From NCBI GenBank assembly GCA_011390365.1, contig JAABSM010000002.1:43089-107088 (forward strand): 64,000 nucleotides of DNA, given 5' to 3'. The translations under genes and the position numbers were made by a program. The notes below the pieces were generated by a model that was given only the letters and a program-made list of their open reading frames with translations, had not been told where the DNA came from and did not search any database. Numbering within the stretch: position 1 is the stretch's first letter; each line of letters starts with the position of its first letter. This document shows positions 41,482 through 63,140 of the stretch, in pieces. This DNA comes from Gammaproteobacteria bacterium. Its GTDB lineage: Bacteria; Pseudomonadota; Gammaproteobacteria; Chromatiales; Chromatiaceae.

Positions 41482-42026
41482 TATTGCGTTTTCCTCGTTA
41501 TTACCACGGAGCCACGGAGATCACGGAGCGATGCGAGAGGACAGCATAGGATGGCGATGACATGATCGATCGACCCGCGCCTAGATCGGATAAGCGCAGC
41601 GCATCCGACACCCTCGGCGCGCTGCTTTTCATTGGGATGATCGAACCGGTAAGGCTCACGGCGGATTATGGGCTGCCCGTAGGCGATAAAAAACCGCCCA
41701 AGCCGCTCCCCCCTGTCGCAAAGGGGGGCTGGGGGGGATTTTTCCTGATTCGGGCTGGTGATTCGGTTCTTGCGCCAGCTTCCGCAAATCCCCCCTAACC
41801 CTTCTTTGCGAAAGGGGGGGACTGGTTTTGGGGCGTATTTCTGATTGCCGCGCATTGACATCATTCGTTTCAGATTCCGGCTAACGGTCATGGAGTGATG
41901 CACCACCCCGGGAAATGAATCAGCCCAAGGAGTGGCAGTCCTTTGAGGACTGCCACTCCTCGGTAGATTCACAGTAACCATTATCCGTGCGCACTGTGTC
42001 TCCGTGGCTGATTTTTCGACTCTGCC
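41482..42026. repeat. repeat-rich spacer between glycosyltransferase genes
   Basis: 545 bp with no supported gene. It contains AGCCACGGAGA (41510-41520) and its inverse TCTCCGTGGCT (41999-42009) near the ends; a GGATAAGCGCAGCGCATCC-type hairpin near 41589-41608; opposed GC tracts (about 41697-41740 and 41785-41820); and a perfect 15-bp hairpin with a 3-base loop at 41928-41960. The bounded, hairpin-rich structure suggests a decayed non-coding element inserted in the glycan operon. Confidence 0.65.
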
Positions 42027-42782
42027 TCAATGCGGTGAATTTCGTCGTTGCCGCCGCAAATGCCCCAGCTTGACATATTTGTAGTAGACCCCGCCGGCGT
42101 TGGAGAGGGCGAGCATCAGCCCCGCCGCGCCGTCGAGGATCGCGCCGCGCAGCAGCCAGCCGCGGATAAAGGCCCAGATCCCGCGCAGGATGGCCTGGGT
42201 CAGGGGCATGGGCAGGGGGCGATCGCGATGCTGCTGGGCCCATAGCGTGGAGTAGCGGTTGAGCTTCTCCAGCACCTCATGGTGATCGCGAAAGGCGTTG
42301 TGTTGCAACCTTTCGTTCAACCGGCCCACCGGCCCATCCACCACCACCCGTTCGTGGACCAGGTCCGCGGTGAAGCGCCCCCGCCCACGGCGAAACAGCC
42401 GCAGCACCCGGTCCGACTGCCAGCCGCCAAAGCGGATCCGTTGGCCGCAATAGCTCGACTGGCGGGGGATCTCGTAGCCATCGAACCGGGGCGCTTCGAG
42501 GATCGCTTGGATCTCCCGCGCCAGCGCCTCGCCCACCACCTCATCCGCATCGATGGAGAACACCCACTCGCCGCGGGCCTGCTCCAGCGCGAACTGCTTC
42601 TGCGGCCCGAAACCGGGCCACTCGCGCTGGAAGATGCGATCGGTATATCGGCGCGCGAGCGCCAGGGTGCGATCGCTGCTGTAGGCGTCCACCACCACGA
42701 TCTCGTCGGCCCAGGATACCGATTCGAGACAGCGCTCGATATCCGCCTCTTCGTTCTTGCAGATGAGGATGACGCTCAACAT
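42027..42782 (-). CDS. glycosyltransferase family 2, WaaE/KdtX-like
   Basis: A 251-residue GT-A enzyme resembling LPS inner-core beta-1,4-glucosyltransferases. Motifs: LSVILICKNEEADIERCLES, WADEIVVVDAYSSDRT, FGPQKQFALEQA, SIDADEVV (the DxD-type site) and FGGWQSDRVLRLFRRGRG. The C-terminal segment (IWAFIRGWLLRGAILDGAAG) is an amphipathic or membrane-associated region common in the family. It overlaps the 3' end of the upstream family-4 enzyme by 7 bp, so both are cotranscribed. Confidence 0.9.
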   Translation of the reverse strand: MLSVILICKNEEADIERCLESVSWADEIVVVDAYSSDRTLALARRYTDRIFQREWPGFGPQKQFALEQARGEWVFSIDADEVVGEALAREIQAILEAPRFDGYEIPRQSSYCGQRIRFGGWQSDRVLRLFRRGRGRFTADLVHERVVVDGPVGRLNERLQHNAFRDHHEVLEKLNRYSTLWAQQHRDRPLPMPLTQAILRGIWAFIRGWLLRGAILDGAAGLMLALSNAGGVYYKYVKLGHLRRQRRNSPH

Positions 42783-44179
42783 GGGCTCAACCAGCCGTCC
42801 CGATGCCAGCTCTCGAAGCGCTCCGGCGTGACCCCCAAGGCGGCCGCATCCCGCTGGCTGACGCGCCCGGAATGCGCCTCCAGCAGGCGGATCAGCTCCG
42901 ACATGGGGTGATGTTCACCCTGAAAGTCGTGAAACAGGCCCAGCCGGGAGCGGTAGCACCAGGGCGCGAGCTGGAAGCGGCTATCCGCGTTGCTTGGCCG
43001 GTGGCGATAATGCAGGGGAGGGCGCTTCCTGGCATTGACGATGGTCTCCGCATAGGCCTGGCGTTGGGCATCGATGGAGAGCCGCCGGCGCAGAAAGGCG
43101 AGGGTGGCGGGGGAGGTGCGGCGCCTTTCCCGCATGATGCCGGCGGCGATCGCCGCCGCCCCGTCCACGTCGCCGTAGTCTACCTTGTCGAGCAACTCCT
43201 CCGGCGGCAGTTCCCGATAGGTGGAGACCCGCGCCGCGATCGCCGGGGCGCCGCAGCTCAGGGATTCATAGACCGCGTTGCCGAAGGCCTCGGGGCAGTT
43301 GCCCAGCGCCAGCGAGACGCTGCCCAGGCTGTAGTATTCCGCCATCAGGTGATGGGGGATCCAGGGGTGGAGGCGGATGTGTTCGGCGATCCCCAGCTCC
43401 CGCGCCAGTTGTACCGGCGAGTGGTAGTGCTGGTCGATCCGTTGGGCGTGGTCGGCGTCGAACCAGCGCGGGAAGAGCAGGGTGAGGTTGTCGATACCGT
43501 ACTCCTTGACCAAAAGGGCGGCGACGCGAATGCTCTGGTCGATCCCCTTGGCCGGATCCGGGCGGTGGGGATGGAGCAGGATGTTACGCCCGCGAGGATC
43601 GAAGTCGAGCAGGTCGAGCAACTCCCGGCTCGGCGGCGTCGGCTTGAAGCGCTCATGGTCGACGCCGTTGTCGATCACCCGAATCCGCCCATCCAGCTCG
43701 GGAAAGAAGCGCCCGGCGGTGGCGAGAAAGATGCGCCGCGAGTAGTCGGAGATGGCGATCAGGGCGTCGCCGCGAAACAGAAACGAACCGAGGATGCTCT
43801 CGGCGTAGGAGTTGTCCCGAATCGACACCACCGTGGGGATCTCGCCGTAGAGCTCCGGCAGCAGCAGCTCCCCATCGTGGATATAGAGCCGCTCCGCCCA
43901 GGGCAGCTGATCCGCCACCTGCTGAAAGTTCCAGGCGGTGCGATAGCCAGGGATGGCATAGGGCTCCGGAAAGGGCTGTTTGAAGCGCAACTCCGGGCGA
44001 ATCTCGACCCCATCCCCCCAATGAAAACGCTCGCCGTTGTCCGGGTGACGGGTGCACAGGATACGCACCTCGTGCCCCAGCGCCCCCAGGTGCTCGGCGA
44101 TCACCTGAAGCTGCTTCGGTGAACCCCCGTTGACCTTGTCAGGGAACAGCGGGTTGATGGAGAAGATCAGGATTCGCAA
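42776..44179 (-). CDS. glycosyltransferase family 4 (GT-B) with extra C-terminal segment
   Basis: A 467-residue GT-B enzyme, probably acting on LPS or another surface glycan. It starts at TTG 44177-44179, five bases behind GGAG. Motifs: N-terminal FSINPLFPDKVNGGSPKQLQ, DNGVDHERF, a donor-site LLHPHRPDPAKGIDQSI and LALGNCPEAFGNAVYESLSCGAP, carrying the EX7E-type region. After about residue 420 a 40-residue tail (SELIRLLEAHSGRVSQRDAA) has a small helical fold not needed for GT-B activity. It is first in this glycan set; the inverted-repeat element begins 20 bp upstream of its start. Confidence 0.88.
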   Translation of the reverse strand: MRILIFSINPLFPDKVNGGSPKQLQVIAEHLGALGHEVRILCTRHPDNGERFHWGDGVEIRPELRFKQPFPEPYAIPGYRTAWNFQQVADQLPWAERLYIHDGELLLPELYGEIPTVVSIRDNSYAESILGSFLFRGDALIAISDYSRRIFLATAGRFFPELDGRIRVIDNGVDHERFKPTPPSRELLDLLDFDPRGRNILLHPHRPDPAKGIDQSIRVAALLVKEYGIDNLTLLFPRWFDADHAQRIDQHYHSPVQLARELGIAEHIRLHPWIPHHLMAEYYSLGSVSLALGNCPEAFGNAVYESLSCGAPAIAARVSTYRELPPEELLDKVDYGDVDGAAAIAAGIMRERRRTSPATLAFLRRRLSIDAQRQAYAETIVNARKRPPLHYRHRPSNADSRFQLAPWCYRSRLGLFHDFQGEHHPMSELIRLLEAHSGRVSQRDAAALGVTPERFESWHRDGWLSPC

Positions 44180-44261
44180 GGAGGCTCCAGGAGTTTTCTA
44201 ACCGCGGATTAACGCAGATGAGCGCAGATTCATGCTCGTTCCCACGCCGCGTGGGAAATGT

Positions 44262-44378
44262 CGCCGGTCGCGGGTTGCACCCGCGACCGTAACGTTGGGT
44301 TGTCGAAATGGCTGTTTATGTCACCCATCGGAGGCTTTCCAAACGTTCCGGTCGGGAGTGCAACTCCCGACCGGCTGA
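44262..44378. repeat. hairpin-rich direct repeat, copy A
   Basis: A 117-bp unit matching 44968-45085 with about ten differences. It contains two perfect palindromes with a three-base TGC or GCA centre: 44267-44287 (9-bp arms) and 44348-44374 (12-bp arms). The unit lies downstream of the toxin gene. The arms differ in sequence, so these are separate hairpins rather than one. Confidence 0.92.
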
Positions 44379-44390
44379 GGCCTGTTGCGG

Positions 44391-44684
44391 TTAAATGCGT
44401 GAATGCCAATAATTCGGCCGCTTTCGATGGTGCGCAAACGCAGTGATCTATACTTGATTATCAATAAGGCGGTAAAAAATGGAGTATGGGAAGCGTGACA
44501 GCCCTATTCTGCGGATACCTGACGGGTGCACTTGTCGCCAAGTCAAAGGGCGTTCCAAGACACATTCAATGGCTTGTTCGAAATCGTTGATCAGGGCCTC
44601 ACCGAGCCCGTTACGCCTTTGTTCGTAGAACCGCACTGCATCAAGGTATTCCGATTCAGCATCTTCAAGGAACCCAGAACTCAC
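44391..44684 (-). pseudogene. RelE/ParE-family toxin with in-frame TAG
   Basis: From the GTG at 44682-44684 the frame gives 78 residues (FLEDAESEYLDAVRFYEQRR, IRRIGLSRFPYSIFYRLIDN) and then a TAG at 44448-44450. Reading on in the same frame gives ITAFAHHRKRPNYWHSRI before TAA at 44391-44393. That is exactly the C-terminal strand and His/Arg/Pro/Tyr-Trp end of RelE/ParE toxins, so the full gene is about 98 codons with a nonsense codon at 79. Either it is a pseudogene, a deliberately shortened toxin, or TAG is read through. It overlaps the antitoxin stop by GTGA, the usual coupled arrangement. Confidence 0.85.
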
Positions 44685-44905
44685 CGAAGAAGGTCTCTCG
44701 CCTTGCCGGCAACCTCTTCACCCGCGACCATTTTGACGTCCCCGACATCGAAGGCGGCGGCTCTTTTCGCGCTTTCATTTCCCCAGTATCCGTCGAACTC
44801 CTCTTCGCTAACCTCATCAAGACTAAGGATCAACCTGCGGACCAGCTGCGCCCGCTGATCCGTTGGAAGTGAGAGTGCTTCGGATTCAATTTGTGCCAAC
44901 AGCAT
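44681..44905 (-). CDS. addiction-module antitoxin (PF09720-like)
   Basis: A 74-residue antitoxin, the typical partner of this RelE/ParE group. The start ATG 44903-44905 follows GGGGG at five bases; ATG 44915-44917 is an alternative. Text such as IESEALSLPTDQRAQLVRRL then LILSLDEVSEEEFDGYWG, and a region ending GEEVAGKARDLLR, match the short helical, unstable antitoxin family. It reads into the toxin by a GTGA overlap. It lies inside the inverted-repeat-bounded cassette. Confidence 0.85.
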   Translation of the reverse strand: MLLAQIESEALSLPTDQRAQLVRRLILSLDEVSEEEFDGYWGNESAKRAAAFDVGDVKMVAGEEVAGKARDLLR

Positions 44906-44967
44906 ATGTTCCCCCATTTGGTGATCGATAGTGTAAGAAGAAATTTTAGCAGCGCAACATGAACATG

Positions 44968-45085
44968 CGCCGGTCGCGGGTTGCACCCGCGAGCGTAACG
45001 TTGGGTTGTCGAGATGGCTGCTTATGTTGCCCATCGGGGGGATTTCCAAACGTTTCGGTCGGGAGTGCAACTCCCGACCGGCTGA
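44968..45085. repeat. hairpin-rich direct repeat, copy B
   Basis: The second copy, in the same orientation as 44262-44378. Its palindromes are 44973-44993 (one arm end mismatched) and 45056-45080 (11-bp arms around GCA). It lies upstream of the antitoxin and may hold or influence its promoter. Confidence 0.92.
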
Positions 45086-45142
45086 CTTTCTTCCCCGGCA
45101 GGAAAAATCATCTGCGTTAATCCGCGGTTCATGCTTCACCGA

Positions 45143-46120
45143 TCAGGACAGCCGCACCCGGGGATCCACCAGCGTATAGGAGATATCGGTCAGCAGCAGC
45201 CCCAGAATGTAGAGCACCGAGCCAAGAAACACCATGGCGCGGACGATGGCGAAGTCCTGGTTGTTGATGGCGTCGATGGTGTAGGAACCCAACCCCGGAA
45301 TGCCGAAGAAGGATTCGGTGATGAGGCTGCCGGTGAACAGCAGCGGTAGCACCACTACCACGCCGGTGAGGATGGGGATCATGGCGTTTTTCAGTACATG
45401 GCGAAACAGCACGACCCGTTCGGAGAGGCCCTTGGCGCGGGCGGTGCGGACGTAGTCCTTGTTGATCTCCTCCAGGAACAGGGTGCGGTACCAGCGGGTG
45501 CCGGCGCCGATGCCGCCGATGACGCCGATGATCACCGGCAGGACCAGGAATTTGATCGCGCTGATTCCGGTGTCGTAGCCGGAGATGGGGACCAGATGCA
45601 GGAGTTTGCTCACCAGATACTGGCCGCCGATGATGTAGAAGAGGCTGGAGATGGACATCAGCACCACGCACAGCACCACGCTCCAGAGGTCGATGTAGGT
45701 GGCGCGGAAGAAGGCGATCAGCAGCGCGAAGGTGATGTTGACCGCCAGTCCGATGATCAGTACCGGCACGGCGATGGCGAGGCTGGGCCACATGCGTTGA
45801 GAGATGTCGTGGCCGATGTCGCGCCCGGAGTCGGAGGAGCCGAACTCGAACCGGAACAGCTTGAGGGATTTTTCGAAGAAGATGGTCTCGCTGATCTTGC
45901 CCAACCCTTCAGCGCCAGCGTTGTAGAGTAGCGGCATGTCGTAGCCCCGCTCCGCTTTCCAACTGGCGATCGCCCCTTCGGTGACCCGCTTCTCCCCCAG
46001 ATGCATGCGCGCCATGTCTTCCGGCGAGTTGAGCACGAAGAAGAGCAGGAAGGTGAGGATGTTGACGCCGATCAGGATCGGAATGGCGTAGAGGATGCGG
46101 CGAATGATATAGGCGGTCAC
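45143..46120 (-). CDS. ABC transporter permease, OppB/DppB-type
   Basis: A 325-residue inner-membrane permease of a peptide- or opine-type importer. It has an N-terminal signature YIIRRILYAIPILIGVNILTF, an extended periplasmic loop (about 50-115), and the EAA-type cytoplasmic loop INKDYVRTARAKGLSERVVL...HVLKNAMIP. It ends YTLVDPRVRLS, a normal OppB end, so it is complete. It starts inside the 3' end of the binding-protein gene (ATGA overlap). Neither an OppC-like permease nor ATPase genes follow; the inverted-repeat cassette begins 13 bp past its stop. Confidence 0.92.
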   Translation of the reverse strand: MTAYIIRRILYAIPILIGVNILTFLLFFVLNSPEDMARMHLGEKRVTEGAIASWKAERGYDMPLLYNAGAEGLGKISETIFFEKSLKLFRFEFGSSDSGRDIGHDISQRMWPSLAIAVPVLIIGLAVNITFALLIAFFRATYIDLWSVVLCVVLMSISSLFYIIGGQYLVSKLLHLVPISGYDTGISAIKFLVLPVIIGVIGGIGAGTRWYRTLFLEEINKDYVRTARAKGLSERVVLFRHVLKNAMIPILTGVVVVLPLLFTGSLITESFFGIPGLGSYTIDAINNQDFAIVRAMVFLGSVLYILGLLLTDISYTLVDPRVRLS

Positions 46121-62704: not shown

Positions 62705-63140
62705 GTAACGCTTCGTTAGCAAGTCGTAGCGGAAGAAAGAGACCTGGCCGCGGAACGGGTGTTGCATACCCGTCCCGTACAGCGCTCCCGCCGGCTGAAG
62801 GCTTACCTACCGTTTCGATCGAAGGGTTCCCTCCCCCGGCGGAGCCTGCCGTAAAAGCCCCTCTCCCCGAGGGAGAGGGGTTGGGGTGAGGGCTCAAATG
62901 CTTGAAAATACTCCAGTGCAAGAATTCGCTACCTGCCCCAATCAACCTTTTGCGACAGCCTCCGCCGGGGGAGGGTCAGGGAAGGGGGGGCTGGTGTCGG
63001 CGGGATGGTCCGAACCCCCTGCCAATGCCCAATACCCTCCCCCCAACCCCCTCCCGGCGGGAGGGGGAGTGTTTATAACGGCGGGACGGGTGTGCAACAC
63101 CCGTCCTGTACAGGCGAACGAGACGATGGCCAAGGCCGGG
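62705..63140. repeat. repeat-rich convergent spacer
   Basis: 436 bp between argB and lspA with no supported gene. It holds ACGGGT-type hairpins at 62752-62774 and, perfect with 10-bp arms around GCA, at 63084-63106, both followed by GTACAG or its like; a 16-bp perfect inverted repeat CCCTCCCCCGGCGGAG at 62829-62844 and 62960-62975; and the GAGAGGG hairpin at 62858-62880. It appears to be a pile-up of short non-coding elements. Confidence 0.8.

Follow-up and report, generated by a model that had tools for sequence, protein, structure and literature searches.

A toxin-antitoxin (TA) gene pair lies here between perfect 22-bp inverted repeats on the outside and direct repeats of about 117 bp on the inside, raising the question of whether the 930-bp block is one mobile cassette or a set of repeats that came to lie together. 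The initial annotation had favoured the former, describing a non-autonomous element without a transposase, placed neatly between a glycosyltransferase gene and an ABC permease gene and using an addiction module for persistence. We analysed a 64,000-nt stretch of DNA, hereafter the window, which spans positions 43089-107088 of contig C92 in a 4.26-Mb draft genome of 169 contigs. The block (Table 1) is, in our judgement, probably a nested mosaic, with small intergenic repeats separately acquired around a probably decayed TA module at a rearrangement junction.

Table 1. Features of the 930-bp block and its flanking genes (positions in the window).
Feature	Position	Strand	Remarks
Glycosyltransferase gene, flanking	42776..44179	-	PF00534, PF13439
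Left end of miniature inverted-repeat element	44200..44231	+	AACC and three iterons of 10-bp period; first 22 bp form the inverted repeat; matrix score 50.0
Member of a third family of dispersed palindromes, GTTCCCACGC..GCGTGGGAA	44236..44258	.	Comparable pattern in L216, L130, L141 and L150
REPIN/BIME-like unit, left copy	44261..44378	+	Palindromes 44266-44288 and 44350-44372 with a spacer between
ParE-like toxin gene	44448..44684	-	78 aa; early in-frame stop
Antitoxin gene	44681..44905	-	74 aa; PF09720 Unstab_antitox; 4-nt overlap with toxin start
REPIN/BIME-like unit, right copy	44967..45085	+	Palindromes 44972-44994 and 45057-45079; 92% identity to left copy
Right end, inverted	45098..45129	-	Outer 22 bp perfect, third iteron absent; matrix score 25.7
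ABC transporter permease gene, flanking	45143..46120	-	PF00528

The outer repeats (44200-44221 and 45108-45129) are 100% complementary over 22 nt, both by inspection of the sequence and by repeat search. By our own arithmetic, a perfect inverted repeat of this length would occur in 930 bp with a probability of about 2e-8, and it is therefore not due to chance. The direct repeats are separated by nine substitutions and one indel column over 118/119 nt, matching the ten or so differences first reported; the indel caused the repeat search to divide them into families of 82 and 49 nt. Reading frames and profile searches bore out the absence of a transposase from the window copy of the element. The block contains no match to a sigma-70-like promoter or terminator consensus (shuffles gave 0.5 and 1.3), and an Rfam search returned two chance-level matches only, far under the gathering scores. 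Collapsed or misjoined repeats are a very improbable source of this anatomy: the draft is in 169 contigs, and some palindromes of the kind described below do sit at contig ends (C29, C18), but the block is well inside a 107-kb contig, and its two direct-repeat copies differ at 10 alignment columns and so do not represent a single sequence entered twice.

The 22-bp sequence forms the terminus of miniature inverted-repeat elements that make up a dispersed family. Allowing up to three mismatches, we found it at 28 sites in the same genome, the window's two included, and its reversed control at none. Alignment of 31 sites gave a consensus of AACC and, after it, three iterons repeating about every 10 bp, AACCGCRGAT TAACGCMGAT NNACGCAGAT. 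A generic three-iteron pattern, a single degenerate pattern that also admits the variant CACAGAG, matched 93 sites in the 4.26-Mb genome, with no match for its reversed control. At a loose threshold, a matrix scan of 354,896 bases (the window and 40 fetched stretches, 38 from this genome and two from genome G003) returned 60 raw matches, compared with zero for the reversed sequence. Matches that scored under 7 and had no other end nearby were excluded from pairing, as were the G003 ends. The third iteron, present at the window's left end, is missing from its right end. AACC is outermost in the paired ends, the exception being one right end in ten pairs (L140), in which the last base is different. 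Another iteron-type repeat (ACCACGGAGCCACGGAG..) occurs at window position 41503, close to glycosyltransferase genes.

Neighbouring generic-pattern sites within 500 bp of each other (n = 16) were convergent (+/-) in 15 cases and -/- in one, with no divergent (-/+) or +/+ pair, against an expectation for uniform sites of about 1.0 pair in any orientation. The convergent lengths are 71, 83, 141, 142, 142, 142, 144, 150, 167, 172, 242, 255, 261, 413 and 419 bp, with six of the 15 falling at 141-150 bp. The window pair stands outside this set because its right end lacks the third iteron; it is the longest of the ten convergent pairs from the matrix scan (133, 133, 135, 143, 143, 144, 144, 236, 272 and 930 bp), a set that overlaps the first and was kept unmerged with it. 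Both 133-bp pairs measure 142 bp from AACC, which is located further out. Shorter paired copies elsewhere are often 133-150 bp long with variable interiors. Another 19 ends, including two low-scoring ones (13.4 and 15.2), were treated as solo. When an inverted partner was sought within 500 bases of these, three (L134, L128 and L122) scored higher than every one of 100 shuffles, and L134 proved to be truly paired, over 242 bp.

The outer sequence has the marks of a MITE-like family, namely terminal inverted repeats that occur in pairs, keep their outermost bases and are dispersed in many copies; one such copy is in the window. MITEs are described, in the available text of the source, as elements of 70-300 bp with 15-30 bp terminal inverted repeats (TIRs) and no coding capacity (PMC3733652). 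The elements found here resemble them in being short, intergenic and dispersed, with inverted ends of about 30 bp and a common length near 142 bp. They differ in that many ends looked solo, no target-site duplication was obvious by eye in the flanks of the printed pairs, no parent transposase with the same ends was present within the stretches read, and the interiors are barely conserved, sharing little beyond a central CTCACC..GGGTGAG-like palindrome in several copies. Searches with repeat strings or with REP/MITE terms, which strings present only in figures escape, returned no published description of the iteron-ended family.

If the whole block were a single non-autonomous cassette, the 22-bp ends would be recognised in trans, the REP units and TA genes would be cargo, and the TA module would ensure persistence. 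The perfect outer ends and their convergent pairing, typical of transposable ends, fit this account, as does the variable length of the elements, some of which contain additional inserted sequence and reach 413 and 419 bp. We nevertheless consider it improbable. A single full-length 930-bp copy was found in this genome, its right end is incomplete, its toxin is shortened, and no target-site duplication is visible by eye. Fifteen of the 19 other end-bounded stretches (83-419 bp) have no frame of at least 40 codons; four do, and the three longest frames (99, 82 and 55 codons) have no Pfam match. A candidate larger element in genome G193, an 1810-bp stretch with an ABC-ATPase-like frame, was ruled out as a single element by a nearer inverted end about 140 bp inside it. 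What holds of the earlier proposal is that the ends behave like those of miniature non-autonomous elements, with 15 of 16 neighbours convergent and no transposase, and in the past they may have been moved in trans by an enzyme; what is not supported is the 930 bp as one mobile unit, with a single full-length copy and no empty site found. Movement of the block as one addiction-held cassette is possible, and we found no positive evidence for it.

The direct-repeat unit belongs to a different kind of repeat. It consists of two opposed palindromes with 3-base loops, spaced 84-89 bp apart at the doublets seen, except at C139 (145 bp) and at about ten loci that showed only one recognisable palindrome. 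The spacer, whose sequence varies, is faced by the tags AACGTTTGG / CCAAACGTT. The stems are mostly invariant and their covariation is weak, with changes on both sides in two of 22 pairs and a covariation term of 0.02. At E-values up to 10, a search of the same genome returned 84 rows, where both strands of a single palindrome may be listed, and the 26 palindrome loci that we read are the top part of that list. Five units, two on C29 and one each on C44, C83 and C143, share 86-93% identity although they lie at different places, an indication that the unit has been dispersed. At E 0.001, the unit matched one of 58 family genomes, namely its own, and palindrome B had no match in viral contigs. 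A further palindrome of similar design (GGACGGGTGTGCAACACCCGTCC) lies at window position 63084.

A rigid spacer between two inverted REP palindromes is the arrangement of REPINs and BIMEs, and the unit shares with these REP doublets, as far as the available text of the source describes them (PMC3116915), opposed palindromes at a near-fixed distance, conserved ends, a variable spacer and the occurrence of singles beside doublets. It differs in its tags: GTAG/CGTC, a feature of the REP superfamilies described in the available text of PMC3733652, is absent from the consensus of 14 units. No RAYT flanked by the repeat was found either, the only RAYT-like frame being a single sub-cutoff Y1_Tnp match on C124, broken into two frames, with no palindrome in its 7.5-kb stretch. 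At this locus (L143:2924-3731), a REP-associated tyrosine transposase-like gene is split into two frames, the first ended by an apparently repeat-derived stretch. The TIRYT transposases, Y1-type enzymes to which moderately abundant inverted-repeat families are linked (PMC3733652, section 16), offer a further comparison: the iteron ends too are a moderately abundant inverted-repeat family, but no Y1 transposase was found bounded by window-type ends, the nearest listed iteron end on C124 being about 4.3 kb from the broken Y1 gene.

Within this family, the two window copies stand apart. Their identity to any of the other 13 units aligned does not exceed 72%, they share their spacer with none of these, and by full-unit BLAST they reach 77% at best against other genomic copies. 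As mutual closest relatives among the 15 units aligned, they probably arose by local duplication. Their outer flanks differ, so the window is not a plain tandem duplication like that at C22. At the latter locus (C22:65420-66174; L051, L054), a palindrome unit and its flanks are tandemly duplicated with a 299-bp period and 99% identity between copies. The same two observations, close mutual relationship with a private spacer and differing outer flanks, would also be expected if a REP+TA unit of about 706 bp, as a piece or a circle, had recombined into a resident unit and left direct repeats on both sides, with the outer ends uninvolved. We regard this alternative as conceivable though doubtful, as no palindrome occurs near any of four other PF09720 loci and neither a donor nor an empty site is known.

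The genes between the repeats are a TA pair, as first proposed; they form a two-gene type II module with a toxin frame shortened relative to its relatives. The antitoxin belongs to PF09720 (38.7 bits; cut-off, 23.3), scores 25 bits against TIGR02574, under the cut-off of 31.9, and aligns with five relatives over 73-74 residues. The toxin matches PF05016 ParE_toxin with an E-value of 6.5e-4 and 20.7 bits, under the 23-bit cut-off. Like other pairs of a ParE/RelE-type toxin with Unstab_antitox, the module has the order antitoxin-toxin with overlapping genes, and it is 54-62% identical in amino acids to related modules in records titled Chromatiaceae, Thiocystis, Methylovulum, Crenothrix and Methylomonas. 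Unlike these, its toxin is not full-length for the family: translation with stops shown places its stop 20-23 codons earlier than in all five relatives, and the frame downstream is still relative-like. The toxin is thus probably shortened, through mutation or sequence error. Its function has probably been lost and the module decayed, although the early stop could be an error in the 169-contig draft, or the shortened toxin could still be functional. With the toxin frame ending early, active addiction is doubtful, and the idea that the module ensures persistence is not supported. The toxin had no match in plasmids or in solved structures. Only about 60-70 bp separate the module from the repeat copy on either side.

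Do the ends, the palindromes and the TA module belong together? Of the 26 palindrome loci read, five (C12, C44, C81, C121 and the window) have an iteron end no more than 150 bp from a palindrome; some of the 26 loci stop at contig ends, beyond which iteron ends would be missed. By our own arithmetic, uniform placement predicts fewer than one such locus of 26. This excess is weak evidence for linkage, because both families appear intergenic, and their crowding in the short stretches between genes can account for it. Neither repeat is linked to TA modules: neither ends nor palindromes occur within about 1.5 kb of the genome's four other PF09720 loci, at the modules of the five relatives or at L088 (which has only a short toxin-stretch match), and self-comparison of these loci revealed no repeat bracketing a module. 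Around antitoxin genes elsewhere, we noted a looser inverted pair with another heptamer (CACGCGAATGCGCGAAGACGCGAAG) about 770 bp from the gene (L078:585-734, C165), a short tandem array that precedes the gene by some 300 bp (L084) and palindromes about 2 kb away (L083). The initial annotation had suggested a search for the 22-bp end and the 117-bp repeat, holding that wide and independent occurrence would count against a cassette; both are indeed dispersed, mostly apart from each other, which comes close to that outcome.

The insertion site is likewise less tidy than it had seemed. The glycosyltransferase has a close homologue in one of 37 other genomes (G003), where the neighbouring genes are different. 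Permease orthologues of at least 68% identity occur in 12 of 21 other genomes. By our own reading, a frame beginning like a second permease follows the permease in eight of 13 relatives' loci. In the present genome, the second permease lies on contig C83 (L263, L264), followed by ABC ATPase genes, and none of the window repeats occurs within about 1.5 kb of it. The element, which reaches the permease gene across window positions 45129-45143, is therefore at the split of a transporter operon whose two permease genes are adjacent in those eight loci, so that the supposedly neat placement is a synteny break. We take the permease to be YejB-like and the names YejA/B/E to apply here. No empty site was found through the glycosyltransferase or the permease in the relatives' loci, which were read to about 1.5 kb beyond each gene.

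Across genomes, the ends have a patchy distribution. The GCAGAT-type pattern is present in two of 58 family genomes, the present one (31 sites) and G003 (two sites). The generic pattern, with no mismatches allowed, occurs in 26 of 299 phylum genomes, comprising this genome and 25 members of the distant family f45, with at most 40 sites in any f45 genome and no control hits; f45 is heavily sampled (about 74 of the 299 genomes by our own row count), and about two thirds of its genomes are without the pattern. Within f45 (for example G193, G229 and G287), genomes of the same genus may have the iteron-end class in abundance or lack it, and G229 has end pairs of 100, 100, 143 and 147 bp. A stricter pattern matched 14 stretches of environmental contigs labelled viral. 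Three such IMG/VR contigs (L237, L239 and L245) carry several iteron ends each, some in close convergent pairs. A bolder reading, which we offer tentatively and think unlikely as a whole, is that the ends define a broad, apparently unnamed class of miniature elements, recognisable by AACC and three CRCRGAK iterons in helical phase; an interior-tolerant enzyme would move these in trans, so that they could pick up genes such as a TA module.

Returning to the nested mosaic, we suggest that three layers were added in turn. A MITE-like element, its ends bearing AACC and three iterons spaced by about one turn of the helix, would have settled between the two genes at the rearrangement junction; it would then have been entered by a REP unit, today present twice in direct orientation; and a ParE-like / Unstab_antitox module would have entered between the two REP copies, either through insertion or because a REP+TA piece recombined homologously with a resident REP. 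This order, from MITE-like element through REP unit to TA module, appears the most likely. Two observations run against nesting: the unit copies flank the TA module tightly, as those of a composite would, and neither an empty site nor a second copy was found.

The locus stands as a caution that tidy bracketing by two repeat types can come from nested independent repeats. Its wider interest lies in the outer end family, with its iterons near a helical turn apart, its convergent pairs often similarly spaced, its little-conserved interiors and its patchy distribution, which together give the search for the enzyme behind the movement of such elements something definite to aim at.
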